NCBI GenBank assembly: GCA_013359225.1
Contig: JABWCG010000001.1
Location: 561,627-601,517, forward strand
Origin: Candidatus Buchananbacteria bacterium
GTDB taxonomy: Bacteria; Patescibacteriota; Patescibacteriia; Buchananbacterales; UBA6539
Length of the DNA: 39,891 nucleotides
Reading direction: 5' to 3'
Each line of letters begins with the position of its first letter. Position 1 is the stretch's first letter. The position numbers and the translations under genes were made by a program. Positions 1 to 23,360 of the stretch are shown in pieces. A model generated the notes under the pieces. The model was not told where the DNA came from and ran no database searches. It worked only from the letters and a program-made list of their open reading frames with translations.

Positions 1-908
1 AAGAAAAACGCCAATACCGGACCAACCAAAACGTATTTAGTAAATTCCGACCACCACTGCTGGGCGTAACGCATCCCCTGAGGAAAGGCCGACAAAATAT
101 AGGGTAACGGAGAAAGCACTAACAAAAACCACAGCATCACCATACGAGCAACAAACATCACTACCATCACCAAAATCACGATAATAGCAATCATCAACAT
201 AATTACCGCCAAAAAAGCCGTTGCCACTACTGGAATAACATCAATTTCCGCTGTCCAACCTTCACTTTGTGTATTAGCGGCGGCGTTAATCATTTCGTTA
301 ACCTGCAAAATCTGCATCAAATTACCACCACCACCGACTTTCACGAATGCGGCTACAAACGTCATCATAATCACCTGGGCAAAATCCAAAATTAAGCCGG
401 CAATAGTCAAGCTGAAATTGACCAACACCGCCATAATCAACACCTTAGGCAAAAATTTCTTGAAGTTATATGACTCAATTCGTAAAATCGTGCCAATCGC
501 AATCGCTAAAACCACCAGCACAAAAAACAAATTGGATACGTCTCGCACCAAAGTCCAGCCAACGTTAACCGCCTTAGCATTAACAAAATCATTATACTGA
601 ACAATACCAATTAAAATTTTTGATAACACAATCAACGCCCAGCCTTCAACCGTAATAACCGCTCCAACCATCAAACGAATAATTGAAACAAAGAGATTTT
701 CAAATATGTTACCAGCTCCTTCTAGCACACCAGTTACCGCATTACTCACTCCAGCTGAAACTGCACCAACCGGGTCTGACCAAAAACTAGGGCTTTCCTC
801 ATCCTGTGCTAAGACTGGAAGCGCCAAGCTAAAACTCAAACTGAACAGTAGCAGGACACTTAACAGTCTTGGCAGATATTTTTTTAGTTTTCCAATGACT
901 TTAATCAT
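1..908 (-). CDS. VirB6/TrbL-like T4SS membrane protein (C-terminus beyond left edge)
   Basis: Reading leftwards from an ATG at 906-908, 302 codons stay open to the window edge, so the C-terminus is missing. The N-terminus has a hydrophobic signal-like segment (residues 13-34, ending in ALPVLAQ). Hydrophobic stretches follow near 73-104, 126-143, 155-189 and a long one at 224-274 that runs into LLVLSPLPYILSAFP and an aromatic stretch with QQWWSEF. This order, multiple helices then an SPLP-type loop and a WW-containing segment, resembles VirB6/TrbL-type inner-membrane channel proteins of type IV secretion systems, which Patescibacteria commonly carry. It starts 15 bases after the stop of the giant gene, so the two are probably cotranscribed. 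Family call is by pattern; exact subfamily is uncertain. Confidence 0.7.
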   Translation of the reverse strand, partial: MIKVIGKLKKYLPRLLSVLLLFSLSFSLALPVLAQDEESPSFWSDPVGAVSAGVSNAVTGVLEGAGNIFENLFVSIIRLMVGAVITVEGWALIVLSKILIGIVQYNDFVNAKAVNVGWTLVRDVSNLFFVLVVLAIAIGTILRIESYNFKKFLPKVLIMAVLVNFSLTIAGLILDFAQVIMMTFVAAFVKVGGGGNLMQILQVNEMINAAANTQSEGWTAEIDVIPVVATAFLAVIMLMIAIIVILVMVVMFVARMVMLWFLLVLSPLPYILSAFPQGMRYAQQWWSEFTKYVLVGPVLAFF

Positions 909-923
909 TGATTATTTTGGTTT

Positions 924-3900
924 TTATTGCTGAACCGTTATTTCACCAGGCATCGGAATATACTTGTTCAATTGTAAGCCGCCCAACTTCGGATCATCAC
1001 AAGTTGATTCAGGAGCTAGGGTATTTTGAGCGCACGTCTGATCTAAACAGCAGGTTTCTGCGTTCCAGTTGTCGCGAACTTTAATTCTAATCTTACTCTT
1101 ACAGTACCCAGCGCTTGTGCCGTCGGGGTTGGTCGGACAACAAATGTATTTTGAACCAGCGTTAAAGTCTGTGCAACTTTCAGTGGTGTCGCACTGGCCG
1201 GCATCATTACCGATCGAAGCGCAATATCGCTGCATTTCCCAATGGTCATAGGTGTGATAGCTGGTAAACGGATTTTTTTCATTGGGCCGGTCGCGCAACC
1301 TTGAACCGGATACCGCTGTAACATTACCGTCGCCCCAGAAGACGCTATAAGAAACAATTGGCAACTGGTTTGGATCGTCAACCACTGTGAAATCAAGCTG
1401 AATCGATTCAGCGCCTTTCACCACCAAACTCTGCGTCCCGTTGACTTTAATAGTGTCAGGCCTGATTGTCGGGCGTTGGCGGCAAACCTCGCCCTCACCG
1501 CGTGTTGCGCCGTCACAATACCCATATTCCGCAAGGTCAGCTTCCCAATCATCAAAGACATCCCAACCGCTTGTTTGGTTATCGCCCTCAACGTAGTAGT
1601 CATCAGCCTTGGTGTCTGCCGCACCTTCCTGCCAATCCCAGACGCCATAGCTCTTCAAGAAAATATTTTTTAGGCTGTCAGCTCCCTGATGCAATTCGCC
1701 CATTCTGGCCTGATGCGGTTGAGCAATAGAAAGCAAAGGCGGTTCATAGAACAGCGGCTGGCGATAAACGGCCGTTTCCCGGGTATCCCAGTTGCCCGGA
1801 TTTTGCGAATTGGTCGGCGGGACCGCTGAACCAAACGGTTCAAAATCAGAACTTTGATACTGATTACACACTGGATTTAACAAACAGTCGCCATCGGACT
1901 CACACGTAATATTAGTCGGCAATGCCGGATCAACATAATTACATTTATTGTCGTCACAGGTTGCTTCACATTTTTCAAGCTCCGCTTCAAATTTGTCAAA
2001 ATCATACGGCTCATTATATAGATAATACCCCTTGCGGCTGGCCGTATCCGCCAAGACATATTTAGAGCCAGGGAATACCCGCGACAACCAGGCCTTACTA
2101 ATACCGCTGGCATCAACAACCCGAACCAAGCGCTTGCAATAAGTCACGCTTTCATCCGCACTGTAGAATTTGCCAACCATGCCGGTCTGAGTGATCATAC
2201 CGGGATGTTCAAACCGGATAACGCCTCCTAAGATGTCACCGTTAATCTCCGGGATCGGATCGGTTAAATCAGCAATCTGCGAAAATTCATCCCGATCAGT
2301 CACCACCTGGAATACCGAATACGGCCCAAACTTCACCCCAAACCAGCCGGCAAATTCTTCTTGAGACGGGTAATCTATGCCGGAACCGGCATCGGCCGCG
2401 GAAGTAAAGACATCCCAAATATCGTTCCAGTCACCAACATCAAAAGCAAACAGTCCGTCGCTAATCACTTGAAACACCGCCAAAATAATCTGCGGCGCCG
2501 CACCGGCTAACGACGTACTTAATGAAATACCGGAAATTAAACTGTTGATAATAGTAGTATTGTCTGCTAACGGCTCAGTGAATGTGATATAGGTATGAAG
2601 ATATACCCCGATGAAATCAACCGGTAACGCCGACTGAATCAAATCATAGGCCGTTGAAAAATAAGTCACCAAATCCATGGCCGCAGCGCCGCCCATAGCC
2701 ACCGCAATAATACCAACAATTACCGTCAACATCAGCGATACGTCACCGCGAACATAAACTACAACCGGCACCACGCCGTTTTTCTCGCTGTCTTGGGTTC
2801 TAATCTGCATGTCCCAATCACTATAGCCAATCCAGACATTCGGTTCTGCCCAGGCCGGAAGTGATGACATAATCTGATCTCTCAAGGTGTTTCGTAAAGT
2901 CGCCACAAAACCGCTGTCTGACATTTGAGAATCCAAATTAATCAAACCGATACCTTCTAAGAATGATAAGAAAGCATTATTTCTCAAAAATTCCGTCATC
3001 GGGTTAGCCTGACCGCTAATAATCGGATATTGAATATGGAACGACAACTCCTGGCTGTCCATAATAAACGGCCGCTGGTAATACGATGGCGTATAATCGT
3101 AATGAATTTTAACCGTATCAACATACGGGAAGCGATACTGAATCTGGTACTCTTCTGGGATATTAAAGGTTAAAAACTCAGTCGGAGTACCTTTTTCGTC
3201 GTGGAATGATGCGCTGGCTTGCGAAGTGTCAAACGTCGCATAGCTATACCCCTCTTCAATTGCCGGCAAAGTGCCGGTTTCCATACAGTAATAAAGCGGC
3301 GCTGGGATGTCAGGAGCAAAAAATTCATCGTTGCCTTCGCCAGCAATGCTGTCAACCGGCCACCACTGAACACACTGACTCGGGTTAGCCGGGTCAGTAG
3401 TCAAACAATACCCATCACGACCGCTATATAACGTCTTGTCTCGATAGTATCGGCAGGCAAGCGAACTGGCCTCCGGATACACGCGACAGGTGCGGTTAAT
3501 GAAATCGTTACTGACGTCCGTCGGTTCCTGTTGAACTCTTAACACCGGCTGTAAGCTGATCTCATCATATAGCGCGTAACCACTAATATCACACCCAGTT
3601 TCATTTTTGTTATCTCGACAAAAACTAATATCATCATCACCATGGACAGGTGGTGCATCGTTTTGAAGATAAATTTTTAGATTGTTATCATTAGCCTTAA
3701 ACCGATACGTTAAATGCGTCCAATCAGACCCCGCATCAACCGCCAAACAACAAAGCTCACTAGCTTCATCAACCGGATCCTGCTTACACAGTTCATCCTG
3801 ATTAGCCGGGTTCCAGCCTTTAATGCTGTCTTTGGTCAGACAAATTTGTCCGGAAACCACGCGGTCGGCGGCACTGTCTCTGGTACGGCTATCAATGCTT

Positions 3901-6900
3901 TCACTGGAAAGATTAAAGGTATTAATCCAGCCCGACAAAATGTATTCCGCATCTTTTTCAACGTCAATTTCACCGCTTTGCACTTGGTATGAGGTGCTAA
4001 GTTTCAAATATCCACCTTCAATGGCTGAGCGAAGATCATCTTCAACAATATATTTATATGGCTGCCAGCCCTGACTGTCGTCGTAATCGCCAATACTGTT
4101 ATTGATATACGGCGACCAACCGATTGGTTCGCGGCGTTTATCAAAAACCGTCTCAAAGTTACCATTAGTCACTAGTGCTGAGCTTCCTTCTTGGGTCATT
4201 TCGGCATACGGGAAGTAGCCGTGTACAATGTCATTAGCAATCGCGGCATTCGCAAATTGGAATCCGGCCTGACTATAGCCGCTTAAGTTAGAAATTTGTT
4301 CGGTGTCCTGATAGTAATCCGACCGATTATCAATCGTGGGGTTGGCTGGATCAGCAGTAGTAACTAAAATATTGCTGTCGCAGTTGCCGTTTTCGTCCAG
4401 CGAATTACACAGCCCCAGACTGAGACATTCAGTTCGTTCACCACCGTTTTCATCAAAGGTTTTGGCGGCTGATTTGCAATATAACCAGCTTTCACAGGTA
4501 CGGTCTGGCTTGACTTTCAATACTACGTTTGAATCGCACGGCCCGGCACAATCAATAATCGGTAAACCGTTATTCACCGGAATACCACTAGTGTCACCGT
4601 CATAGGTCAGGTACCCAACGTCGTCTTCACCAACATTATAGTTAACCTGGCTGCGATCATTAAACAAGACACATTCATTGTCCAAATCAACCACCCCGTT
4701 ACAGCTCAACTTATCAACCGAATCAGCCAAGACATAATCAACGCCAGCTTTTCTTAAGAAGATTTCCTTAATCTTAGTTTGAGGACTAGACATTTCAAGA
4801 CGGACCTTGCAGTTGCGGGGTTCTGTCAGGGTAAAACGAACTGAATAATTAATTTCACGCTCAGGGAAGTTAGGAATATTGCCAACAGTACGAGTTTCTT
4901 CCTGATAGGCATCGGGCGGAATTCGGAAAGAATCCGCACTCAACGTTTCCACTGAGTGGTCATAAGAAGTAAAACCAGGGCAGTCCACAATTTCAATGCT
5001 GGTGCCGCTTTCTTCGTCCAGACGCTGTTTAGTGGTAATACCAAACACATAAATAGTATCGGCCTCTATGGAAACTGCTTTTTGTTCCAACGTATTAGGT
5101 TGCGCATCCCAACCGTCCGGAACATTATCTTCATTGAAATCTTTATCAAGCATGCCGTTAAACAGCAAGTTCTTGGAAATGGCTGAAGCCGAATCAATAA
5201 ACTGCGTACAGCTGCTAAATTCACCCGGACAAATTCCGGCGTACCAGTGGTCAGACGAGTCGGGTCCCGGATGGACGCCGCCTACCGGTGATTCAGTCAA
5301 CGGACAATCAGGGGTCTGCGAAGATGAGCCAATCTTAAACCAACCGTAACTTGATTGATTTTCAATCTTACGGTACTCACAAGTCCGCGCTCCCGGATTC
5401 TTGAAATAGGTAAAGCCTTTTGAGCTCTGCCATTCCTGACAGCCAACCTCTTCATTGCCACACAAAATTGAATCGTACTTATCCGGATCATTTATAAGAT
5501 ATGCTGTTTGGTAGCCTGAAACAATTTGGCTGGTGTTATCAACAACCGTAATCTGAGGCAAGCCGACTGCCTGACAACCTTTTTGATCCGAACCACATTG
5601 CTGTTCGGGCCGGGTGGTCATATATACCAAATTGTCCGCTGGCACCTTAACGTCGGCGATACCGTCAGAAGCGTTAAAATTCTGTTCAAACGGACTGCTG
5701 GAGTTTTGCGTATCAATCAATGCTTCGCAACCAATCGCTTCTTCACGACACAAACTGGTAAATGATTTCAAATTATGAACTCGATTGTATGAGTCAAAAT
5801 ACTGAGCACAGCCAAGCATAAACTGCGGCGCCTGAATTGGCGGATCAACAAACGGATTGGTGTCGCAGCTACTTGGCGTTTCCCAAGAATTCTTAATGAC
5901 GTACTCGTAATTTTGAACCTCCTTAATTTCAATGTTATCAACAAAGAACCGGTCTTGCGCCACTGATTCTTCGGCCGTATCTTTGTCTGACGAAACTAAC
6001 CGAAGTCGTAAACCGTCCTGAAAAGTATCATAGACAAACGGTCCAAATTTATAATAATTCCAATCTGGCCCAAAAGAAGTCGTACCGACAACGTACCCCG
6101 GACTAAACTGTAACTGAATGTCACTTGCCACGCTGCCGGTGCCGCTCTTGGCCCAGAAACTGATAACGTATGTACGGCCCGGAGTCATATAATTATTCAT
6201 CATGCCGCACTGATCGTCACCTATAGCTATAGTACAATAATCATCCGTGTTGAAATAATCCCGCGCCACACACTCTCCTAACTCCGGATCAAAGCAGTCA
6301 AACAAAGTTTCTTCGTCGCACAACGGCAACGCGTCCGAGCAAGTAACCGGATTATTATCATCACCACCCAAAACTCCCCAAGTGGTAACAACTCGCTGGT
6401 TATATTTATTATTACCGCCCGTATTCTGAACTGTTTCCGGCGCAATTGAGTGGCCCGTAACCGTCAACGCCTCAGAACTGATTGTCCCATAATGCCAACC
6501 ATTCAAATCACCGTCTTCAAAGTTATCAAAGTAAGTTGTAAAAATATTGGCACCAGCATTACCGCGGTACTCACGACAACCAGCAGCATCAGCCGAACAG
6601 CTAATGCCTTCATTAGGAATCGCCTGGTAGACACAGGCGCTGTTTTGAGCGTCCCAACGGCCGTTGCTGAAATTGCAGTTTTCTTCCGCATCTAAATCAG
6701 TTTCACCTAACCGAGTCTTTCTGAACGGATGGCAGTCCAGCGAACATGAAATTGTGTTGTCATAAATACGATATAATGTCTCACCCGTAACAGAAATTAG
6801 CTCTTTACAAAACGGGTTAACTTCCAAATCATCAGCCTCATTACAACACTCCGGCAAGCCGTTGCCGTCAAGCGTTTTATTTGAACACCATTCGTCCGGC

Positions 6901-9900
6901 CAGCGGTCAATTTCCGCTGTGTCAATCGCGTATTTCGGTTGATTATCTTCCGCTGACAAGCTATAAATCTTTAACTGGAAGCCGGTTTCTTCTGAACCTT
7001 GCCAGGCAAAAAAGCTCTGGCAGGAGGCTTCATTTGGTTTTTCGCAAAGGCGCAGATACTTATAATGCTCCAGACCTTCACCACCAAGTGCTACTTCGTC
7101 CAAATTAGTAAATTCATCACATCCGGCTTGACTGGCATTACAAGAAACCGCCGTATCAGGAATAAAGAATTCTAATGACTCCTGGTTTTCAAACAAGGTT
7201 GATGATTGTTTATATGATTCGTAACCGACACATTCAAGCGGACAGTAATCCTGCAATCCGACTACCCCTGGAACGGTGGTGCCGCCGCGTAGCGGTCGAT
7301 AGGCTTCACAGCCAACCTCCTGCGGCTGACAATAGTACGCATAATTGTAGCATTCCGGGGCGTCAATTTGGTGACAACAAAACTGTCCGGTCGGATCGCA
7401 CGCATCTTCGCGCCACAGCATTGTCTCGCCAACACAAAGCGGTTTGGTCACTTCATCTAATACATACGGGCTCGGCAAGCTTGGACTGTATCCCTGACAA
7501 TCAAGCGATGCAGGCGGTTTTTTCAGGTAGATGTCGTTAACCTTGCCGTAATCTTTATAGGCGGTGGTCGTCGGGTTTAAAGCATCAACTTCCTCAACCT
7601 GCAGGCCGTCAAGATATAAGGTCTCCGGATAAAGCGAATTATTATTAAAAGATATTTTGAAATCAAATCCCCTGTCCCTGGTAACGATCGGGTCCATGAC
7701 AATTCGCTGCCACTGGTCATTTAACGTCATGCCTGAACGGCCGTTAAATTTCAGGTGAGAATAATCGTATAAACACTCATCGTTGGGGTTTCCCGTTCCG
7801 GTCGCGGCACTCTGACAAGTCTCATTGCCATTGGGCCAGAAGCAGGCAATGGTGCGATCTAATTTACAAAAACTATCATTAGGTTCAGCATCAGACAAAA
7901 TTTCAGAATACCACCTGGTGCCGTTTTCAGGTTCGGCGATATAATCAGTTTTTGCCCAAAAAGAAACTCGGTAGGTAGTGTTTGGTCTCATGCCGACAAT
8001 CGGCAACGTTTCAAAATCTCGAGCATTAGTCTGGCCGGGATCGTTAGTTAATTTTACACTGTAATTATCAATCGGACTGTCAGCGCTTCGCTCACACTTA
8101 ACCTCGCCGTCACAAGTTTCTGTCGCCGGATGATTTTCGCCACTTGACCATCCCGGTGGAATCTCGCCAACGTCAGTCCAATCTTCAAAACTTGAATTAA
8201 CTACCAAGTTAGTTCCGATGTTTGGCAGCGTTCTGATAAATTTAGAACAACCGCCATCTTCCTGGTTACATGTTTGCGCATCCCGATCAAGATGAAGCTT
8301 GCTTTGATCTTTCTGGACTGAAGCTGCCAACGTTAATCTGACCGGATTAGCAATACAGCTTTCCGAAACTTTGAATTCATCAAACCAGGCCGTGCCACTC
8401 TTGGGGCTGCCATTTACATTAATATTTATTCTGGTGTTACCAAAAGTCTTAAATTCAAACGAGAAGTACTGCCAAGAATTCTTAATTAGGTTTGAGATGT
8501 CAAAAGTGGTAGTTTCCAAAACCGCTCCCGCCTCGTTTAATGCTTCCACCTCCAGCGTAATGGTTCCGGCGTTCAAACGATTGAACACTCGTCCAGACAA
8601 CGTATAAAATTTAAATCCGCTGGCATCATCAACCGGCAAAGAGAAGGAGTCCGATTTTAATTTATGACTGCCGCTTGCCGCCGCCACATAATAGCGGATA
8701 CTGTGGCTACCGGTTCCGGGCGGATACACTTGCTCGGTTGAACCAGTAACGCGCTGCCAGTACTGTTTTTGGTTGGGGTCGGTCACCGACCAGCCTTGAG
8801 CAACATATTTGTTTGCATCTTCGCTCGCCGTATACGGCTGTTCAAAACTGGCATTGGGCAATTGATTTGTCAGACCGTCGCAACTGCTTGAAGTACAAGA
8901 CACCCCGCCATACGGAATCGGCTCGGTACACGATGTCGCAACAACGCACGCCGTACCATTCCACCATTCCGAATTCGGACCACAACTCTGATTTAACGTT
9001 ACCTGCGCCGAAGAACTAGCGTCGGCACAGCTGTAACTGCCTTCAGGAATCACGCAACTGGCAACCAAATTGCAGCCACCGGGGCGGTTACAGGTGGCCA
9101 TAACGCCCTCGCCCGGATCAAGACAGGTCCAGACATCGCTTTTAGCGTTATACTCTTGGCAGTACCACTGGCAGCCGGCATTATCAATATTACAGCCGTT
9201 ATAATCAAGACTATTTTCCAAATAGCTCACGACCTGCCCCGAAGACGATTGAAATGTCTGACAAGTGTTAAAGTAATCTGGACAACTTGAACCCTGCAAA
9301 TTCCAGATTCTTTTTTCTTCAGAACAATACCCATAATACTTGCAGGTACCGTCGTCATTTTCCTCCAAACAAGTTTGATAGTCAGCACAGTATTCGGCAC
9401 GGGCCAGAACTCGGCTGGGTGAAACGTCTAAGTCATCATTATAATCATTGTCCTGGTTGGAATCGTACCCAGGAACGGTGCTCTCGTAGACAATCTTTGG
9501 ACCGTATCCTTCAGCCTTACAAATATGGCTTGGGCTCTTTAAGACCCACTGCGGATCAATTAAGCCGTAATAAACACTGTCAGGGTTTTCAAATTCCGCG
9601 ATCAACTGATTTAAGCTAAAGGTTTTGCCCGGATCAAACTGTTTAACCGCCTTGGCCGCCAATTCCCAGCCAACCGGCACAATCCGGTGAGCCCGCAAAA
9701 TCACAATACTGCGGTATGGGATACCATTGTAGATTGATGAGGGATCATAGTCGGTAAAACCAAACGGTGCGTCGCCGTTAATCAGCCCCTTTTTAATCGC
9801 TTCCTTTAAGGTTAATTCCTGCTCAACCGCCGAGCGAAAACTTTGAGTAATAACACATTCATCCGGTCCGGGATTATCCGGATCAGAACAAAATGCCATT

Positions 9901-11144
9901 CTGGTCAAAACGTCATACTGTTCAGTAACCGTCTGGCCGGCTTCAAATAAACTTAAAAATCTGAGTTCAGCCGCATCACGACCGCCGAACCGCTGCGAAC
10001 CCGACTGTCCGGTGTATAAGTCGTCGTAACTGGAGCCGCCGAAATTGGGCAACCCCGGAAAAGCAAACGGGAAATTAAAGAAGTCCGAACCGTCGTCACC
10101 TGAATCGTCCGCCAAACCTTCTTCAAAAATTCGCTGGAACAGTTTACCAACTAATGTGTTAAGAAAAGTCGCAATCGGATTTAAAACCAAATCGCCAAAT
10201 ACTGCTTTAGAAGCTTCAAGCTCTGACGGGTTATCAACCAGCTGCTTCATCGCCCACTCTTCAACTAATGTTCCAGGAGTTTTGATGATATTAGAAATCT
10301 TTGAAATAATCCCCTTAAATTCGCTTCCCGTTGCCCGACCAAAGACCGCTTCAACTAATTCGCTGGTGGTTTTTTGATAATACTTATTAAAAACTTCTAA
10401 ACCGATGGTGACATCATTATTGCCGGATTGAAATGCAACTTCAAACCGATCCAAAAAATCTTCGTCGCTGACAAATGACTCCCAGTTTTGAACCATCTGA
10501 CTGACGCTACAATCCGGTTTTCGCGGCCGGCTCAAATTACTAATACCGCCGGCCAAACCTAATTTAATACTAAAGTTTGGTTCACAAAGATTAATATTTT
10601 CAACCCAGTTTCCGGCCAAATCATTTAAGAATTCTCCGGCCGCGCCGTCAACTGCGTCCTGCAAGTAAGCCCCCCAGCCTTCCGTGTAAAACAATGGCTG
10701 CTGGCCTTCACCACCGGACGCTAGCCAGGTAGCAGTATCATAGGCAATTTGATTTAATAAATTGTTTAAAGCTTCAATCGCCGCCGCAAAAATCGTATGT
10801 TTCAACACATTGTCGCCTTTTTGTTTAAGCCATTCTTGAATCCACAAACCTTCTCGTTCGGCAAGATTTTCAGCTGCTTCACCACGGTCAGCGGCGCTGT
10901 CTTTTTCGGTTAATCCCTGCTGAGTTGGATCGCTCACCTGAACACCAGCAGCAGAACCGGACGGATTTGATGCCAACACCGGCAATGGATAAAGTACCGC
11001 CGGTACTACCAGCGTTGAAATCATTTGAATAATTACTGCCACGGTGACGGTTTTTTTCAAAACAAAAAACCACTTTGAGGAAGCAACTTTTTCTTCCTGC
11101 AAGTCGGAAACCTCCTGACGTAATGTTTTATCTTGTCTCAACAT
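924..11144 (-). CDS. Giant cysteine-rich modular surface protein (3,406 aa)
   Basis: A single uninterrupted 10.2-kb frame. Residues about 33-57 form one hydrophobic N-terminal anchor or signal. Residues about 540-752 are very Cys-rich (about 20 Cys). At least five regions open with a phrase like N-x-S/N-F-E...GW and end in a phrase like W/L-D-E/G-hydrophobic, typical of jellyroll carbohydrate-binding modules: near residues 757-925, 980-1183, 1535-1738, 1991-2131 and 2324-2528. A C-x5-G-C-x2-aromatic/aliphatic motif recurs eight times between them. Two hydrophobic stretches lie near 2798-2820 and 2870-2900, and a PKD-like segment (VFWGDGN, then HTYDH) near 3261-3300. It shares one base (TAATG) with the upstream gene and is followed by a VirB6-like gene, suggesting an exported part of a T4SS-like surface apparatus. 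The function is unknown; adhesion or host contact is inference. Confidence 0.8.
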   Translation of the reverse strand: MLRQDKTLRQEVSDLQEEKVASSKWFFVLKKTVTVAVIIQMISTLVVPAVLYPLPVLASNPSGSAAGVQVSDPTQQGLTEKDSAADRGEAAENLAEREGLWIQEWLKQKGDNVLKHTIFAAAIEALNNLLNQIAYDTATWLASGGEGQQPLFYTEGWGAYLQDAVDGAAGEFLNDLAGNWVENINLCEPNFSIKLGLAGGISNLSRPRKPDCSVSQMVQNWESFVSDEDFLDRFEVAFQSGNNDVTIGLEVFNKYYQKTTSELVEAVFGRATGSEFKGIISKISNIIKTPGTLVEEWAMKQLVDNPSELEASKAVFGDLVLNPIATFLNTLVGKLFQRIFEEGLADDSGDDGSDFFNFPFAFPGLPNFGGSSYDDLYTGQSGSQRFGGRDAAELRFLSLFEAGQTVTEQYDVLTRMAFCSDPDNPGPDECVITQSFRSAVEQELTLKEAIKKGLINGDAPFGFTDYDPSSIYNGIPYRSIVILRAHRIVPVGWELAAKAVKQFDPGKTFSLNQLIAEFENPDSVYYGLIDPQWVLKSPSHICKAEGYGPKIVYESTVPGYDSNQDNDYNDDLDVSPSRVLARAEYCADYQTCLEENDDGTCKYYGYCSEEKRIWNLQGSSCPDYFNTCQTFQSSSGQVVSYLENSLDYNGCNIDNAGCQWYCQEYNAKSDVWTCLDPGEGVMATCNRPGGCNLVASCVIPEGSYSCADASSSAQVTLNQSCGPNSEWWNGTACVVATSCTEPIPYGGVSCTSSSCDGLTNQLPNASFEQPYTASEDANKYVAQGWSVTDPNQKQYWQRVTGSTEQVYPPGTGSHSIRYYVAAASGSHKLKSDSFSLPVDDASGFKFYTLSGRVFNRLNAGTITLEVEALNEAGAVLETTTFDISNLIKNSWQYFSFEFKTFGNTRININVNGSPKSGTAWFDEFKVSESCIANPVRLTLAASVQKDQSKLHLDRDAQTCNQEDGGCSKFIRTLPNIGTNLVVNSSFEDWTDVGEIPPGWSSGENHPATETCDGEVKCERSADSPIDNYSVKLTNDPGQTNARDFETLPIVGMRPNTTYRVSFWAKTDYIAEPENGTRWYSEILSDAEPNDSFCKLDRTIACFWPNGNETCQSAATGTGNPNDECLYDYSHLKFNGRSGMTLNDQWQRIVMDPIVTRDRGFDFKISFNNNSLYPETLYLDGLQVEEVDALNPTTTAYKDYGKVNDIYLKKPPASLDCQGYSPSLPSPYVLDEVTKPLCVGETMLWREDACDPTGQFCCHQIDAPECYNYAYYCQPQEVGCEAYRPLRGGTTVPGVVGLQDYCPLECVGYESYKQSSTLFENQESLEFFIPDTAVSCNASQAGCDEFTNLDEVALGGEGLEHYKYLRLCEKPNEASCQSFFAWQGSEETGFQLKIYSLSAEDNQPKYAIDTAEIDRWPDEWCSNKTLDGNGLPECCNEADDLEVNPFCKELISVTGETLYRIYDNTISCSLDCHPFRKTRLGETDLDAEENCNFSNGRWDAQNSACVYQAIPNEGISCSADAAGCREYRGNAGANIFTTYFDNFEDGDLNGWHYGTISSEALTVTGHSIAPETVQNTGGNNKYNQRVVTTWGVLGGDDNNPVTCSDALPLCDEETLFDCFDPELGECVARDYFNTDDYCTIAIGDDQCGMMNNYMTPGRTYVISFWAKSGTGSVASDIQLQFSPGYVVGTTSFGPDWNYYKFGPFVYDTFQDGLRLRLVSSDKDTAEESVAQDRFFVDNIEIKEVQNYEYVIKNSWETPSSCDTNPFVDPPIQAPQFMLGCAQYFDSYNRVHNLKSFTSLCREEAIGCEALIDTQNSSSPFEQNFNASDGIADVKVPADNLVYMTTRPEQQCGSDQKGCQAVGLPQITVVDNTSQIVSGYQTAYLINDPDKYDSILCGNEEVGCQEWQSSKGFTYFKNPGARTCEYRKIENQSSYGWFKIGSSSQTPDCPLTESPVGGVHPGPDSSDHWYAGICPGEFSSCTQFIDSASAISKNLLFNGMLDKDFNEDNVPDGWDAQPNTLEQKAVSIEADTIYVFGITTKQRLDEESGTSIEIVDCPGFTSYDHSVETLSADSFRIPPDAYQEETRTVGNIPNFPEREINYSVRFTLTEPRNCKVRLEMSSPQTKIKEIFLRKAGVDYVLADSVDKLSCNGVVDLDNECVLFNDRSQVNYNVGEDDVGYLTYDGDTSGIPVNNGLPIIDCAGPCDSNVVLKVKPDRTCESWLYCKSAAKTFDENGGERTECLSLGLCNSLDENGNCDSNILVTTADPANPTIDNRSDYYQDTEQISNLSGYSQAGFQFANAAIANDIVHGYFPYAEMTQEGSSALVTNGNFETVFDKRREPIGWSPYINNSIGDYDDSQGWQPYKYIVEDDLRSAIEGGYLKLSTSYQVQSGEIDVEKDAEYILSGWINTFNLSSESIDSRTRDSAADRVVSGQICLTKDSIKGWNPANQDELCKQDPVDEASELCCLAVDAGSDWTHLTYRFKANDNNLKIYLQNDAPPVHGDDDISFCRDNKNETGCDISGYALYDEISLQPVLRVQQEPTDVSNDFINRTCRVYPEASSLACRYYRDKTLYSGRDGYCLTTDPANPSQCVQWWPVDSIAGEGNDEFFAPDIPAPLYYCMETGTLPAIEEGYSYATFDTSQASASFHDEKGTPTEFLTFNIPEEYQIQYRFPYVDTVKIHYDYTPSYYQRPFIMDSQELSFHIQYPIISGQANPMTEFLRNNAFLSFLEGIGLINLDSQMSDSGFVATLRNTLRDQIMSSLPAWAEPNVWIGYSDWDMQIRTQDSEKNGVVPVVVYVRGDVSLMLTVIVGIIAVAMGGAAAMDLVTYFSTAYDLIQSALPVDFIGVYLHTYITFTEPLADNTTIINSLISGISLSTSLAGAAPQIILAVFQVISDGLFAFDVGDWNDIWDVFTSAADAGSGIDYPSQEEFAGWFGVKFGPYSVFQVVTDRDEFSQIADLTDPIPEINGDILGGVIRFEHPGMITQTGMVGKFYSADESVTYCKRLVRVVDASGISKAWLSRVFPGSKYVLADTASRKGYYLYNEPYDFDKFEAELEKCEATCDDNKCNYVDPALPTNITCESDGDCLLNPVCNQYQSSDFEPFGSAVPPTNSQNPGNWDTRETAVYRQPLFYEPPLLSIAQPHQARMGELHQGADSLKNIFLKSYGVWDWQEGAADTKADDYYVEGDNQTSGWDVFDDWEADLAEYGYCDGATRGEGEVCRQRPTIRPDTIKVNGTQSLVVKGAESIQLDFTVVDDPNQLPIVSYSVFWGDGNVTAVSGSRLRDRPNEKNPFTSYHTYDHWEMQRYCASIGNDAGQCDTTESCTDFNAGSKYICCPTNPDGTSAGYCKSKIRIKVRDNWNAETCCLDQTCAQNTLAPESTCDDPKLGGLQLNKYIPMPGEITVQQ

Positions 11145-14081: not shown

Positions 14082-15098
14082 TTACCCCCTAATCTGCTTA
14101 ACAAACTTGTATATTGAAAATACCACCGGATTGGTAATTAAATCATGGCTGCCAACGTACTCAGTAATTTTAGTATCCGGCCCAAAACCAGTCTTAAAAC
14201 GAGTAATACCTTCCCATTTTTTATTGTAGTATGACGGGCCGTTGGTTCCGCCAAAGTCATAATATGTATACCCCGCCTGTTTAGCTGCCAAAATTGCCTC
14301 CCACTGCAACAGATATGCCGCCATTACGTCACGATACATATCAGCCGTAGCACCGTGAAGGTAAATTGCGACTTTGCCAAAAAATGAAATCATATTGGCC
14401 GCAACGATCTTGCCGTCATATTCCGCCAAAAATAATTTAACTGTTTCGTCCTGACTCATCACTTCAAACATTTTTTTGTAATGTTCTTTGTGATGTGGTG
14501 AAAAACCGTCACGCTTGGCGGTTTGTTTCATGAGCTGCCAGAAAGATTCAATATCAGATATTTCACTGCTCACCCGAATTTTAACTCCTTTGCGCATTGC
14601 TAAACCAATATTGTAACGGGTTTTTGGCTTCATAGCCGCCAAAAGCTCCTCTTGAGTTTTGCTTAAATCAAGCATCAGCGTACATTTCGGCTGAATTTCA
14701 TATTCACCTTTGCGAAAACCATTATCAATCAGGCGTTTTTCGTTGCCCAAAAGCCATGGCGGATCCACTCTGATTAAAAAACTTTTTTCTTCCCGCGCCA
14801 GGCGTTTCATTTCCGCAAACAACGAATTAAGGTCGTCAATTTCCATCGTATTAATGACTGGACCTCTGGGACAATATAAATAGTTATACTCAAATGGCAA
14901 TTCATGTTTGACGATCAACGCGGCGGCCTGCAATGCCCCCTCGCCATTAACCGCGGCCAACCTGATAATCTTTCGGTCTAACGTTTTTTGGAGTTCTCCC
15001 CATTGCCAAGAATGAAGCAACCCGCCGTCTGGGGCGTTACTTTTGACAAAATTATCCCAATGTTCTTTTAAGTCTTCTCCGACTTGAATGATCTGCAT
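14082..15098 (-). CDS. FemAB/FemX-type aminoacyltransferase (peptidoglycan bridge formation)
   Basis: About 338 residues from the ATG at 15096-15098; an in-frame TTG at 15113 would add five residues and overlap leuS. FemX-type enzymes move amino acids from aminoacyl-tRNA onto the peptidoglycan stem peptide, using tandem GNAT-like folds. Visible family features are LLHSWQWGELQK near the N-terminus, YLYCPRGPV, LDLSKTQEELLAAMKPKTRYNIG in the middle (split here as LDLSKTQEEL then MKPKTRYNIG), and YDFGGTNGPSYYNKKWEG near the C-terminus, the last typical of FemAB proteins. It begins four bases after the leuS stop, so it is cotranscribed with leuS. Which amino acid is added cannot be read from sequence. 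Confidence 0.85.
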   Translation of the reverse strand: MQIIQVGEDLKEHWDNFVKSNAPDGGLLHSWQWGELQKTLDRKIIRLAAVNGEGALQAAALIVKHELPFEYNYLYCPRGPVINTMEIDDLNSLFAEMKRLAREEKSFLIRVDPPWLLGNEKRLIDNGFRKGEYEIQPKCTLMLDLSKTQEELLAAMKPKTRYNIGLAMRKGVKIRVSSEISDIESFWQLMKQTAKRDGFSPHHKEHYKKMFEVMSQDETVKLFLAEYDGKIVAANMISFFGKVAIYLHGATADMYRDVMAAYLLQWEAILAAKQAGYTYYDFGGTNGPSYYNKKWEGITRFKTGFGPDTKITEYVGSHDLITNPVVFSIYKFVKQIRG

Positions 15099-15102
15099 TT
15101 GT

Positions 15103-17547
15103 TTAAACCACAAAATTAATTAATCGTCCAGGCACAAAAATAACATTTTTTATTTCTCGGTCCTTTAAGTGCACCAACACTTTCTCACTTTGCTTGGCTA
15201 AAATTTCAGCCTTTTGTTCATTGATATCAGCCGGCACCCGAATTTTATCGCGTAATTTACCATTAACCTGAACAATCAAATCAATTTCTGAATCCATAAT
15301 CAAAGCCGGATCAAATACTGGCCACGGCGCTTGACTAATAGATCCTTTATGTCCGGTTAACTCCCAGATTTCTTCACTAAGATGTGGTGCAAAAGGCGAG
15401 AGCAATTTTACCAACGCTTCAGCGGTAAACTGATCCATTGCTTTTTCCTCGCTGATTTTATTGACTAAAATCATCATCGCCGAAACTGCCGTATTATAAT
15501 CTTGGCTTTCAATATCGTCACTAACCTTCTTGACAGTTTTATGAACTAAAGTTGTTAACTCTGGACTGACTGAATCAACAATAACCACTCCGCCGGTATA
15601 CAAGGCCCAAACCTTTTCGATAAATCGCCGAACTCCGATAACACCCTTGGTATCCCAGGGAATTGCCTGATCAAACGGCCCCATAAACATTTCATAAACC
15701 CGGAAAGTGTCCGCGCCAACCGATTTTACCACTTCGTCAGGGTTAACCACGTTACCGCGAGACTTAGACATTTTTTCACCGCCCTCGCCTAAAATCATTC
15801 CGTGGGATGTGCGTTTCAAATACGGTTCATTGCCACATTTTTTTGGCACCACGCCGATGTCATACAAAAATTTGTAGATAAAACGAGAATACAATAAATG
15901 CAGGGTGGTATGTTCCATGCCGCCATTATACCAATCAACCGGCGCAAAATATTCCAGTTTGTCTTTATCGGCCAACTGATCATTATTTTTCGGATCGATA
16001 TAGCGTAAGAAATACCAATTAGAACCGGCCCAGTTTGGCATTGTGTCGGTTTCGCGCATTGCGACTTGGCCACATACCGGGCATGTTGTCTTCACCCAAT
16101 CAGTTATTGCCGCTAGCGGTGATTCTCCGGTATCGGTTGGCTCATAATTTTTAACTTTTGGTAATTCCAACGGTAGCGCACTTTCCGGCAACGCCACCCA
16201 ACCGTCCACTGACGCACCAGTCTTTTTACAATTTTCACAATACACCATAGGGATTGGCTCGCCCCAATATCGTTGGCGAGAAAACACCCAATCGCGCAAT
16301 TTATAGTTAACCGTTTGTCTACCCATGCCGTGGTCCTCAAGCCATTTGGTGATTTGCACCATCGCTTGTCGCACCGACATATCATTAAACTGGCCGGAGT
16401 TAATCAATTTACCGGTTTCGATATCAACAAAAGCCTGCTTGGCGATAGTACCCCCCGCGATAACTTCAATAATGGGCAGATGGTATTTCTGAGCAAACTC
16501 CCAATCCCGCTGATCGTGCGCCGGAACAGCCATAATCGCGCCGGTACCATAGCTTGACAGCACATAATCGGCAACCCAGATAGGAATTTGCTTTCCCGTC
16601 ACCGGATTAATAGCCATGACACCCTGCAACACCACTCCGGTCTTTTCTTTCTGTAATTCAGTTCGTTCCAGGTCTGATTTCTTCTTCGCTTGTTCGATGT
16701 ACGCCTCAACCTCTTTTAAATTGGTAATCTGTGACTGGCAATCTGTAATTAAATTGTGCTCCGGAGCAATAACTATAAATGTAGCGCCAAACAGCGTATC
16801 GGGCCTAGTTGTATAGACAGTTAGCGCGTGATCCTGGCCGGTGATTTTAAAATCAATTTCTGCTCCTTCGCTGCGACCAATCCAGTTAATTTGCTGCTGT
16901 TTAATTCGATCTAAATAATCAACTGTTTCCAAATCGTCAATTAGCCGGTCCGCATACCGAGTAATTCTAAACATCCACTGTTCTAGTTCTTTTTTGATCA
17001 CTTCACCGCCGCACCGTTCGCATTTACCGTTCACCACTTCTTCGTTTGCTAAACCAATCTTGCAGGACACACACCAGTTAATAGGCATTTTGGCTTTATA
17101 CGCCAAGTCGTGTTCATACATCTTCAAAAAAATCCACTGCGTCCATTTATAATATGACGGATCGGTGGTTGTTACTGTCCGATCCCAATCAAAACTAAAA
17201 CCAAACGACTTAAGCTGTCGCGTAAAATTTTCAATATTCTTTTTAGTAATAATTTCCGGACTGGTCCCGGTTTTAATGGCGTAATTTTCTGACGGTAAGC
17301 CAAAGGCGTCAAAGCCGATCGGGTACAACACATTATACCCTTGCATTCGGCGCTTCCGCGCTAAAATGTCGAGTGCGGTATAACTGCGAGGATGCCCCAC
17401 ATGTAAACCCTCACCCGACGGATAAGGAAACTCAATCAAACAGTAATACTTTGGTTTTGAGCTTTCATCATCAGCGGCAAACTGTTTTTTATCCTCCCAG
17501 AATTTTTGCCATTTCTTCTCAATCTTTGAGTGATCGTACTTTTTCAT
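15103..17547 (-). CDS. leuS: Leucyl-tRNA synthetase
   Basis: 814 residues, usual bacterial length. A class I enzyme that charges tRNA-Leu. The HIGH box is HVGH (49-52) and the KMSKS box is at 592-596. Between them lie Cys pairs typical of zinc binding (CVSC...CERC near 160-180) and the CP1 editing domain, with TTRPDTLFGATF near 250 holding the conserved threonine-rich editing site. A second Cys set (CENC...CPVC) follows the editing domain, and GSNWYFLRY and MEHTTLHLLYSRF are typical LeuS phrases. First gene of a leuS-femX(-tsaC) unit, separated from uvrA by a strong terminator. A TTGATA-17-TAATTT pair just upstream would give an almost leaderless mRNA, but that promoter is weak. Confidence 0.97.
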   Translation of the reverse strand: MKKYDHSKIEKKWQKFWEDKKQFAADDESSKPKYYCLIEFPYPSGEGLHVGHPRSYTALDILARKRRMQGYNVLYPIGFDAFGLPSENYAIKTGTSPEIITKKNIENFTRQLKSFGFSFDWDRTVTTTDPSYYKWTQWIFLKMYEHDLAYKAKMPINWCVSCKIGLANEEVVNGKCERCGGEVIKKELEQWMFRITRYADRLIDDLETVDYLDRIKQQQINWIGRSEGAEIDFKITGQDHALTVYTTRPDTLFGATFIVIAPEHNLITDCQSQITNLKEVEAYIEQAKKKSDLERTELQKEKTGVVLQGVMAINPVTGKQIPIWVADYVLSSYGTGAIMAVPAHDQRDWEFAQKYHLPIIEVIAGGTIAKQAFVDIETGKLINSGQFNDMSVRQAMVQITKWLEDHGMGRQTVNYKLRDWVFSRQRYWGEPIPMVYCENCKKTGASVDGWVALPESALPLELPKVKNYEPTDTGESPLAAITDWVKTTCPVCGQVAMRETDTMPNWAGSNWYFLRYIDPKNNDQLADKDKLEYFAPVDWYNGGMEHTTLHLLYSRFIYKFLYDIGVVPKKCGNEPYLKRTSHGMILGEGGEKMSKSRGNVVNPDEVVKSVGADTFRVYEMFMGPFDQAIPWDTKGVIGVRRFIEKVWALYTGGVVIVDSVSPELTTLVHKTVKKVSDDIESQDYNTAVSAMMILVNKISEEKAMDQFTAEALVKLLSPFAPHLSEEIWELTGHKGSISQAPWPVFDPALIMDSEIDLIVQVNGKLRDKIRVPADINEQKAEILAKQSEKVLVHLKDREIKNVIFVPGRLINFVV

Positions 17548-20591: not shown

Positions 20592-21533
20592 TTAGTAGAA
20601 TTCGACGTGCCAATGTCTGGTGCCGCCAACCGGGCTTTCATCGACAAAAGTTGCCGTCCGGCCGTTGGGCAAAGTGACATTGCGATACATTGTTGCGCTC
20701 GGATCCTTACCCCACTGAACCGTTATTGACTCATGGCTCTGAATATATCCATCAAGCTCGGCGTTTTCTCCGATTCGAATATCCGCCTGATACCCGGGCC
20801 GGGATGTATGATGACCCGCCTCAGTTGCCCCGGTAATAGTAAATCCGCCGTATTCATCAGCTAATGAATTTAAACTGTCAACCGTAGTGCCTTCTAGGCC
20901 GCCCACGTTAGTACAATTAGTTTGCCCGGCGTACTGGCACGGCGCTTTATTAATGCCAATATCATGTTCATCCAAGCTCGCTCGAGTAGTAGTCTCCCCC
21001 TGAGAAGTCCCCGTGGGCAAAGCCCCCGTATATTCGCCGCCAGTATCGACTGCGCCGCCGCCATAATCACGGACCAAGGCGGGGTCAAATTCATCGCCAA
21101 CCGACACAGACAAATCATCTAACTCAACTAATTTCGGGTTAACGGTTTGCAGAATGATGAAAGAAAAAAGCGCAAGCAATAATCCAGTTAATGCAGAAGT
21201 AATAAAATCTTTCGCTGTACTGATCTGGTTTGGATTACCGGCCGACACTAACCATAAAAAACCGCCAACCATAATCATAATGACTGCTAACACTCCGGCA
21301 ACCGCGACGCCGTAGTTGTAAATCGCGGTAATATATTTGCCAATCCAAGGAATCGCACATTGTGTTCCACCCTCACAACTAACCGGATCAAACTCTAATG
21401 TCGTATTGCCAATCTTAACCGACAGCGTCGGTTTAATCCCCCCGTCCTGCGCCATGGCTACAGAAGCATTTATAAACAGAATAACAAATAAAGCCGCTAG
21501 AAATATAATGCTACTTTTTTGAAAATGTTTCAT
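20592..21533 (-). CDS. VirB2-like pilin segment fused to an M15-like (Hedgehog/DD-peptidase fold) hydrolase
   Basis: 313 residues. A signal-like segment (10-28, then AMAQ) is followed by two hydrophobic helices (about 72-96 and 110-130) joined by a short polar turn (SAGNPNQISTAKDF), the layout of VirB2/TrbC-type T4SS pilins common in Patescibacteria. After a Gly/Thr-rich linker the C-terminal domain (about 215-313) has GHHTSRPGYQADI with H241/H242 and D251, and ends in HWHVEFY (H307, H309). An upstream H...D pair plus a terminal HxH is the zinc-site pattern of M15 peptidases, which cut peptide bonds of peptidoglycan or L,D/D,D links. It lies 12 bases after the lysozyme fusion and is the last gene before a terminator. 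The peptidase call rests on metal-site residues only. Confidence 0.7.
   Translation of the reverse strand: MKHFQKSSIIFLAALFVILFINASVAMAQDGGIKPTLSVKIGNTTLEFDPVSCEGGTQCAIPWIGKYITAIYNYGVAVAGVLAVIMIMVGGFLWLVSAGNPNQISTAKDFITSALTGLLLALFSFIILQTVNPKLVELDDLSVSVGDEFDPALVRDYGGGAVDTGGEYTGALPTGTSQGETTTRASLDEHDIGINKAPCQYAGQTNCTNVGGLEGTTVDSLNSLADEYGGFTITGATEAGHHTSRPGYQADIRIGENAELDGYIQSHESITVQWGKDPSATMYRNVTLPNGRTATFVDESPVGGTRHWHVEFY
21136..21327 (-). repeat. 192-bp near-identical repeat, copy in the M15-pilin gene
   Basis: This stretch matches 22159-22350 at 189 of 192 positions in direct orientation. It encodes the two pilin-type helices. The three differences are silent. Identity stops sharply on both sides. 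Confidence 0.97.
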
Positions 21534-21545
21534 GTCCGACGTGTC

Positions 21546-22544
21546 CTAATGTAATAAAGCATCCATAGCGCCACTGATCATAATTTCAGAATTTCGCCGC
21601 GCTCGGTTTGGCACCTGACCGGCATAAATACTGTCAACAATTTCCGCGCCGGCCGTCACCCAGTATGTTGCGTCGCCAGTTTCAATGCCATTAACAACGG
21701 CAGCCTGCAAATTAACAAAACTATCCAGCCCGCCGCCGCCCAAATTAAAGGCCATATCAACCAGAACTGTTCGCCGATCGGCATCAAGCTGATTCCAGTT
21801 TGCCTCGCCGCCGACAAAACCAACTGCATCATCAATTGCGTCCTGATAATCGTCCTCAAAAAGTTCGTTTGCTCGTTCACTAGATATGCAATCACCTTCA
21901 TTAATATTGTCCGCTCCGGTCACTAAGTGGCCATACCCAATTGTCAAATTACCAAGACTATCGCGATAAGCACACGGATTATAGCCCTCATTTCGCTGTG
22001 TATACTCAACCGGATTACCACCGGTCCAATAATCTCCATCAGACCCGGTGCCATCGCGTTCTGGTGTAATAGCAATGCCGCTGGAGCTGTCAGTCCCACC
22101 AACCGTGTTAATTGGTTGAATCTGTGACACCGTTATACCTTCTAATTTGACCAGACGAGGGTTAACGGTTTGCAGAATGATAAAAGAAAAAAGCGCAAGC
22201 AATAATCCAGTTAATGCAGAAGTAATAAAATCTTTCGCTGTACTGATCTGGTTTGGGTTACCGGCCGACACTAACCATAAAAAACCGCCAACCATGATCA
22301 TAATGACTGCTAACACTCCGGCAACCGCGACGCCGTAGTTGTAAATCGCGCCAATATACTGGCCGATCCAATCCACTTCTAAATTCCCTCCCGATTCTGT
22401 CCAGCCCTCACCCTCATTAAAACCTTTAAAGCTGCCAATCTCAACACTGATCTGCGGCTCGGGAATACCCGTTGCCAAAACTGCCGGCGCTAATAAAAAA
22501 GATCCTGCTAAAAAGAAGAAAAAAATAAACAAAATATTTTTCAT
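21546..22544 (-). CDS. VirB2-like pilin segment fused to a GH24 (T4-type) lysozyme
   Basis: 332 residues. A signal-like hydrophobic N-terminus (2-24) is followed by a short exported segment and the same two-helix pilin module as its neighbour (about 70-94 and 105-126). The C-terminal domain (about 180-330) is a phage T4-type lysozyme: NEGYNPCAYRDSLGNLTIGYGH places E186, D195 and T201 at exactly the spacing of the T4 lysozyme triad E11, D20 and T26. These enzymes cut the MurNAc-GlcNAc glycan bond. It starts seven bases after the dsbA-like stop. The role is inferred to be local wall opening around a T4SS-like pilus or channel (a VirB1 job joined to a VirB2 body), or attack on a neighbour's wall. 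The triad makes the lysozyme call strong. Confidence 0.85.
   Translation of the reverse strand: MKNILFIFFFFLAGSFLLAPAVLATGIPEPQISVEIGSFKGFNEGEGWTESGGNLEVDWIGQYIGAIYNYGVAVAGVLAVIMIMVGGFLWLVSAGNPNQISTAKDFITSALTGLLLALFSFIILQTVNPRLVKLEGITVSQIQPINTVGGTDSSSGIAITPERDGTGSDGDYWTGGNPVEYTQRNEGYNPCAYRDSLGNLTIGYGHLVTGADNINEGDCISSERANELFEDDYQDAIDDAVGFVGGEANWNQLDADRRTVLVDMAFNLGGGGLDSFVNLQAAVVNGIETGDATYWVTAGAEIVDSIYAGQVPNRARRNSEIMISGAMDALLH
22159..22350 (-). repeat. 192-bp near-identical repeat, copy in the lysozyme-pilin gene
   Basis: Second copy of the repeat at 21136-21327, with 3 mismatches in 192, all silent, and flanks that are diverged. The sequence outside the two helices encodes unrelated catalytic domains. 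Confidence 0.97.
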
Positions 22545-22551
22545 ACCGCTC

Positions 22552-23313
22552 TTATCTACTTAACTCTGCTAAAATAATGCTCTCAAATGTCGCTAATGAG
22601 ACCGCACCTCGCAAGGGCTTACCGTTGATAAAAAATGTTGGAGTTGCCTCAACGCCAAATGCTAAACCTTCCTGCAGATCAGCTTCAATTTCCGGCAGAT
22701 ATTTTCCGGCGCCCATGCAACTGCTAAACTGCAAACTATTAAGACCGATTTGAACCGACCAAGCGGCTAAATTATCCTCGTTGATTTTATCTTGATTTTC
22801 AAAAATCTTATCGTGCATTTCCCAAAATTTTCCCTGTTCATTCGCACACTCACCGGCTAACGAAGCTAACACTGCCTGCGGATGGATGTCGGTCAGAGGA
22901 AAATCACGAAAAACAAACAGCACTCTGTCGCTGTAATCCTTAATTAGCTCTTTAACTACCGGATAAACCTGGGCGCAGTACGGACACTGAAAATCAGAAA
23001 ACTCCACAACAACTACCTTCGCGTCTTTTGGTCCGACGCTTGGATCATCATCAGTTGCCAAGTTGGTTAAAACAATCTGATCATCGGGCTCAGCCGCCGA
23101 ACCGCCAAAAAGTTCACTGGCAGTTATTTCCCCAGACCGCAACAGGTAGATGACTTTAGCAACATAAATCCCAAAAGCAACCGAAAAAACCGAAAACAAA
23201 ACTAAAAATCCAATCAGCAATTGACCCCACCAATGCTTATACCATTTTTTGTCCGGTTGGTGATCGCCTTTCTGGGAATTTGGAACATTAAAAATTGGCT
23301 CTTCAGTATACAT
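22552..23313 (-). CDS. DsbA-like thioredoxin-fold oxidoreductase, membrane anchored
   Basis: 253 residues. A cytoplasmic tail of about 27 residues and one transmembrane helix (about 31-55) anchor an extracellular thioredoxin-fold domain. The active site is C110-P-Y-C113 in VEFSDFQCPYCAQVYP, and the cis-Pro loop is VEATPTFFING near residue 220; between them lies the helical insertion (FRDFPLTDIHPQA...) of DsbA/DsbG-type proteins. It should form or isomerise disulfides in exported proteins. It is the first gene of the operon with the pilin-hydrolase fusions, and the window holds several Cys-rich exported proteins that could be substrates. Its -10 box is only 12 bases upstream of the ATG, so the mRNA should have almost no leader. 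Confidence 0.9.
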   Translation of the reverse strand: MYTEEPIFNVPNSQKGDHQPDKKWYKHWWGQLLIGFLVLFSVFSVAFGIYVAKVIYLLRSGEITASELFGGSAAEPDDQIVLTNLATDDDPSVGPKDAKVVVVEFSDFQCPYCAQVYPVVKELIKDYSDRVLFVFRDFPLTDIHPQAVLASLAGECANEQGKFWEMHDKIFENQDKINEDNLAAWSVQIGLNSLQFSSCMGAGKYLPEIEADLQEGLAFGVEATPTFFINGKPLRGAVSLATFESIILAELSR

Positions 23314-23325
23314 AAATTCAATAAT

Positions 23326-23334
23326 ATTATACCA
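23326..23334 (-). promoter_or_regulatory. Extended -10 promoter of the dsbA-pilin-hydrolase operon
   Basis: The minus strand reads TGGTATAAT, a consensus -10 (23326-23331) with an upstream TG (extended -10). No good -35 box is seen (weak TTTATA about 18 bases further up). The predicted start lies about five bases before the ATG at 23313. Confidence 0.65.
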
Positions 23335-23360
23335 TAAAAATAGAAATGATATAAACCGCT

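Follow-up and report, generated by a model that had tools for sequence, protein, structure and literature searches.

Genes at the Locus

The window, i.e., the whole stretch of 39,891 nucleotides analyzed here (G000:C1:561627-601517), belongs to a 1.01-Mb genome, 97% complete, of the Ca. Buchananbacteria family (Patescibacteria). It contains two intact open reading frames on the minus strand, P0002 (332 aa; 21546..22544) and P0001 (313 aa; 20592..21533), which lie 12 bp apart and are real genes, as an earlier note on this DNA had proposed when it described two adjacent pilin-hydrolase fusions. P0002 consists of a signal peptide, a T4SS_pilin module and a GH24 lysozyme domain, and P0001 of a signal peptide, a T4SS_pilin module and a domain with LAS-like motifs, the function of which is unproven. 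Both belong to a tightly packed three-gene operon in the order DsbA-like gene, P0002, P0001, with uvrA following downstream. The first gene (22552..23313, minus strand) encodes a membrane-anchored DsbA-like thioredoxin (Thioredoxin_4) and is separated from P0002 by 7 bp, while a promoter-like site with an extended -10 element, proposed from a consensus match only, is located upstream of the operon (23326..23355, minus strand).

The T4SS cluster of the same genome, comprising prgI, virB4 in two parts and a VirB6-like gene, straddles the start of the window, some 20-30 kb away from the P0001/P0002 pair: virB4 and prgI lie outside the window (C1:551389-554432), and the VirB6/TrbL-like gene (1..908, minus strand) runs past the window start. 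Between the VirB6-like gene and a gene for a 283 aa membrane protein, the cluster also holds a gene (924-11144, minus strand) for a giant secreted protein of 3406 aa with a match to CBM_4_9 (carbohydrate-binding). Additionally, a gene of the FemAB family (peptidoglycan bridge; 14082-15113, minus strand) adjoins leuS in the stretch that separates the T4SS cluster from the fusion operon.

The Pilin Module of P0001 and P0002

Both proteins contain a two-helix module (residues 59-135 of P0002, 22140..22370; residues 63-139 of P0001, 21117..21347; both minus strand) that is 94-95% identical over 77 aa and is encoded by a DNA repeat of 246 nt with about 91-92% nucleotide identity. The earlier note had extended this likeness to the signal peptide; the two-helix part indeed agrees, whereas the signal/N-terminal parts are 36% identical and thus exhibit a general likeness only. 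Its proposal that the two-helix part is pilin-like is corroborated by the T4SS_pilin family (PF18895), which matches P0002 with E 7e-6 and 26.4 bits (29.5 bits in the own-genome search, above the Pfam cut-off of 26.6 bits) and P0001 with E 6e-4 and 20.2 bits (20-25 bits overall), below that cut-off. The NCBIfam ICE pilin model NF045849 matches as well. Hydropathy segments and a helical hairpin in the AF2 model (58-92/97-127) predict two transmembrane helices, joined by a short loop, after the Sec signal, and the second helix is followed by an NP motif in the fusion modules. The loop residues are positive in relatives (GSPDRVGRAKEF), which is consistent with a cytoplasmic loop; given the signal peptide, the two helices and these positive loops, the C-terminus is expected on the outer side of the membrane.

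The window modules share only 21-36% identity with the stand-alone pilins and with the giant-protein modules of the same genome, whose stand-alone pilin array sits on a different contig. The fusion modules form a subfamily of their own, apart from the array pilins that stand alone, which counts against assuming that the same pilus takes both. A chance resemblance to pilins was rejected, since T4SS_pilin matches 87 of the 94 fusion proteins surveyed (E threshold 0.01; best E 1e-13), and a profile of the fusion modules in turn picks up the stand-alone array pilins of Saccharibacteria, mostly with values of 1e-17 to 1e-22.

The C-Terminal Domains

The C-terminal domain of P0002 (residues 184-301; 21642..21995, minus strand) matches PF00959 (GH24, Phage_lysozyme) with 48.9 bits (cut-off 22.3; E 1e-12), and its best relative in the PDB is T4 lysozyme (1e-10). 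The residues E186, D195 and T201, which the earlier note had named as a catalytic triad, were found at exactly these positions, in register with E11, D20 and T26 of T4 lysozyme and with complete Glu-(8)-Asp-(5)-Thr spacing. Moreover, AF2 predicts the domain with a pLDDT of ~97, and the best PDB folds returned by Foldseek are T4 lysozymes (TMt ~0.7; 0.72). Family, predicted fold and triad together make a solid case for a T4-type GH24 lysozyme. The domain is phage-like, with 36-44% identity to lysozymes of phages and viral contigs. Carriage of the fusion on plasmids was rejected, as the plasmid matches were unrelated lysozymes only. A GH24 passenger occurs in 1 of the 286 genomes of the class, and hence GH24 is not a widespread passenger.

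The C-terminal domain of P0001 extends from about residue 195 (20592..20951, minus strand) and contains H241/H242, D251, E299 and HWH at 307-309 (H307/H309). All of the residues on which the earlier note had based an M15-like peptidase are therefore present; the label itself is not established, since it relied on motif-like residues with irregular spacing. We found no M15/VanY match for this domain in Pfam, NCBIfam, PDB sequences or phages, the hhalign comparison with genuine M15-type fusions yielded a non-significant 0.7%, and the assignment of P0001 as an M15 peptidase was dropped for lack of any profile match. Homologues of the domain are encoded at L133:5998-6948 (Buchananbacteria) and L236:958-1848 (another class of the phylum); the L236 protein likewise has a T4SS_pilin module ahead of the domain, and a Pro-rich linker in between. 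The three homologous domains have the motif T-G-x-x-E-x-G...G...DI...DE...H in common; L236 carries AHSAGKKIDI and DESDHW, with HxxGxxxD spacing, as is characteristic of LAS peptidases, and P0001 retains D251 and the His with shifted spacing. Structure prediction, which gave a confident fold for the GH24 domain, was uninformative for P0001, as the AF2 model from a five-sequence alignment reached a pLDDT of ~43 (42.6) and was too poor to use. On these motifs, we treat the domain as putatively LAS-like.

Pilin-Module Fusions Across the Phylum

The search for further pilin-enzyme fusions, as the earlier note had advised, revealed a distribution far wider than the pair. All but one of the 55 relatives sampled (54) carry the pilin module, in most cases at the start of frames of 200-900 aa with mixed passengers, and across the phylum a module match was detected in 299 of 380 genomes, with many of the matches in long frames (the genomes are mostly draft assemblies, and some locus assignments come from short contigs). 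Among the 94 fusions, the passengers, counted by Pfam only and with certain proteins matching more than one model, include SLT (7), 3D (5), Peptidase_M15 (5), VanY (3), Amidase_2 (2), GDSL (2), Phage_lysozyme (1) and C39 (1). Many of the remaining passengers are Cys-rich and some others are giant; recognizable wall enzymes make up only part of the set. P0001 and P0002 are thus one case of a large family that is apparently undescribed.

Very long frames also begin in this way. On contig C2 of the window's genome, a protein of 958 aa (L012:7522-10398) and, adjacent to it, a protein within an open frame of 5761 aa (L012:10425-19901) both open with a signal peptide followed by a T4SS_pilin module, and frames of 3000-5300 aa with the module are found in many relatives. 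In one genome (G045; L091, L092), the fusion pair occurs twice, as an inverted duplication, and once more on a different contig.

The fusions occur in two conserved contexts, namely SBP/secG - DsbA-like - fusion(s) - uvrA and prgI - virB4 - ... - fusion - beta-propeller-like gene - DsbA-like - fusion - recG; the beta-propeller-like protein (e.g., L131:2473-3828) is conserved next to the fusions of the T4SS locus throughout the class. DsbA-like genes accompany 42 of the 70 fusion loci fetched, and VirB4/PrgI 20 of them. Hence, gene neighborhood in many genomes supports the association of the pair with a T4SS. It is at the virB4/recG locus that enzymatic passengers are most frequent: 51 proteins there gave 16 matches (SLT 7, M15 5, VanY 3, amidase 1; some proteins match two models), as against one lysozyme and one 3D domain among 24 proteins of the uvrA locus. 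The latter locus is syntenic across relatives and holds LAS-like, 3D or Cys-rich passengers; a restriction of Cys-rich passengers to it was ruled out, as it and the T4SS locus did not differ overall in this respect (p 0.29). An SLT domain (VirB1 type) was not found in the genome of the window, where the hydrolase is the GH24 domain on the pilin module.

Concerted Evolution of the Module

Along the window pair, nucleotide identity is ~0.3-0.4 outside the module, rises to 0.83-1.00 across it and then drops back. The two homogenized tracts (21103..21348 in P0001 and 22126..22371 in P0002, both minus strand) have sharp edges; the module dS is 0.22, and the flanks are unalignable. The same pattern extends to the relatives: the closest module was found within the same genome for 67 of the 76 fusions that have a paralogue in the genome, and of the 40 tip pairs of the module tree, 34 unite modules from a single genome. 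Where a genome has fusions at both loci (ten genomes), the modules group by genome in the ML tree, and a locus-wise grouping was rejected (delta lnL 184.5, p-AU 9e-5). In contrast, the DsbA-like neighbors from these two loci, compared in five genomes, cluster by locus, and a genome-wise grouping was rejected (delta lnL 65.3, p-AU 4e-8). Since modules group by genome while the adjacent DsbA-like genes group by locus, it is the module, and not its surroundings, that is homogenized within genomes, while the C-termini change; the DsbA control also disfavors genome composition as the cause of the within-genome likeness.

Homogenized modules with exchanged passengers fit the subunits of one common assembly, which, given the virB4/prgI linkage, would most simply be the T4SS or its pilus. 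Homogenization could also result from recombination alone, without co-assembly. Concerted evolution confined to the module, together with swapped passengers, is a clean genetic sign that the proteins may share one assembly.

Discussion

The reading of the earlier note, that pilin and enzyme are joined in one chain associated with a T4SS, is supported for the fusion and the association, and is not established for the M15-like peptidase label. We propose that the fusions are passenger pilins, i.e., pilin subunits that are associated with the T4SS and present exchangeable enzymes or adhesins on the outer side of the membrane, and we assign this reading a probability of about one half. The signal peptide would export each protein, and the VirB2-like two-helix module would insert in the membrane with a short cytoplasmic loop, leaving the variable C-terminal passenger outside. 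Gene conversion would keep the modules of one cell nearly interchangeable, possibly because they are docked onto, or built into, the same T4SS or pilus assembly. The passengers (peptidoglycan hydrolases, here a predicted GH24 muramidase, as well as Cys-rich domains and very large proteins) would be exchanged and would work at the T4SS contact site, where the hydrolytic ones may open peptidoglycan for the machine to pass, and the DsbA-like neighbor may form the passengers' disulfides. Because hydrolytic passengers change quickly between lineages, we lean toward the wall of a partner, rather than the cell's own, as their target. In such tiny, parasite-like bacteria, a fixed module with freely exchanged enzyme ends suggests a machine for host contact whose tools are interchangeable. 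More tentatively, the assembly may be an "armed" conjugation-type pilus, in which T4SS filaments or bases are made of uniform, gene-converted modules, and exchangeable outer heads (muramidase, transglycosylase, carboxypeptidase, amidase or adhesin) penetrate the host envelope or attach to it where the two meet.

A serious rival is that the module is a mere membrane and T4SS-targeting anchor, and that the enzymes act like VirB1 on the cell's own peptidoglycan during T4SS assembly, without incorporation into a pilus. A published survey recovered few VirB1 homologues from pilin-bearing Patescibacteria, in which VirB1 is mostly missing, and allowed for other glycosidases taking over this task (PMC12102498). 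The lack of an SLT domain in the genome of the window and the prevalence of hydrolases at the virB4-linked locus also favor this reading. However, the many Cys-rich or giant passengers are not hydrolases, and a turnover of enzyme types as fast as that seen for GH24 would be unusual for a housekeeping step; we regard self-wall remodeling as less probable than the passenger-pilin reading.

Two further explanations appear weaker. The proteins might be effectors or toxins delivered into the host through the T4SS, with the pilin module as an entry ticket, comparable to polymorphic toxins. The fixed N-terminal module with swapped C-termini would suit such a role, as would the unusual T4SS of the phylum, which lacks a relaxase (PMC12102498), but a Sec signal peptide and two transmembrane helices suit membrane insertion and not channel transport, and no immunity-like partner gene was seen, which makes delivery improbable. 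Least probable of all are ordinary membrane-anchored autolysins unrelated to the T4SS, whose match to pilins would reflect no more than a general similarity of two-helix segments. This would agree with the scores of the window proteins at or below the Pfam cut-off, but it is already disfavored by the T4SS_pilin matches of nearly all relatives, the detection of Saccharibacteria array pilins by the fusion-module profile and the VirB4/PrgI linkage. The fusions bear on how Patescibacteria, to which much of bacterial diversity belongs, attack their hosts or feed on them. The patescibacterial T4SS is essential in the only case that is genetically tractable, includes pilins that are absent from Gram-positive systems and usually has no recognized VirB1; pilin-enzyme fusions beside virB4 throughout the phylum are thus, with their genes now named, candidates for the hydrolase that is missing there or for a device that pierces the host.

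In the literature searched, which left most subscription papers and preprints outside its scope, we found no description of pilin-hydrolase fusions or of module-only concerted evolution, and their novelty is provisional. Patescibacterial pilin arrays and their essentiality are already known (PMC12102498; PMC10633639), and T4SS pilins were reported to be highly expressed in Paceibacteria (PMC10936435). The VirB2-like arrays (PF18895; e.g., the essential array of S. epibionticum ML1) have the same two-helix module, Sec signal and VirB4/PrgI linkage as the fusions, but their members are stand-alone proteins of 100-150 aa and divergent paralogues, with an average identity of 25% (PMC12102498), whereas the fusions carry a passenger and an NP motif after helix 2 and are homogenized within genomes. 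With the VirB1/PrgK-type hydrolases, some of which join glycan- and peptide-cutting domains, the fusions would have in common the cutting of the wall for a T4SS; VirB1 types, however, are separate enzymes without a pilin module, and the GH24 domain of P0002 is a phage-type lysozyme and not SLT or CHAP. Phage T4-type lysozymes have the same catalytic domain, triad and predicted fold as P0002, which differs from them in being tethered to a pilin module and encoded chromosomally in a syntenic operon. Finally, the P0001 C-domain has G...DI and ...H(x)H-type residues like those of LAS metallopeptidases (M15, VanY, MepA), but it lacks a statistical match to them, and the spacing from E299 to the terminal His differs from ExxH, whereas other fusions of the class bear genuine VanY/M15 domains.
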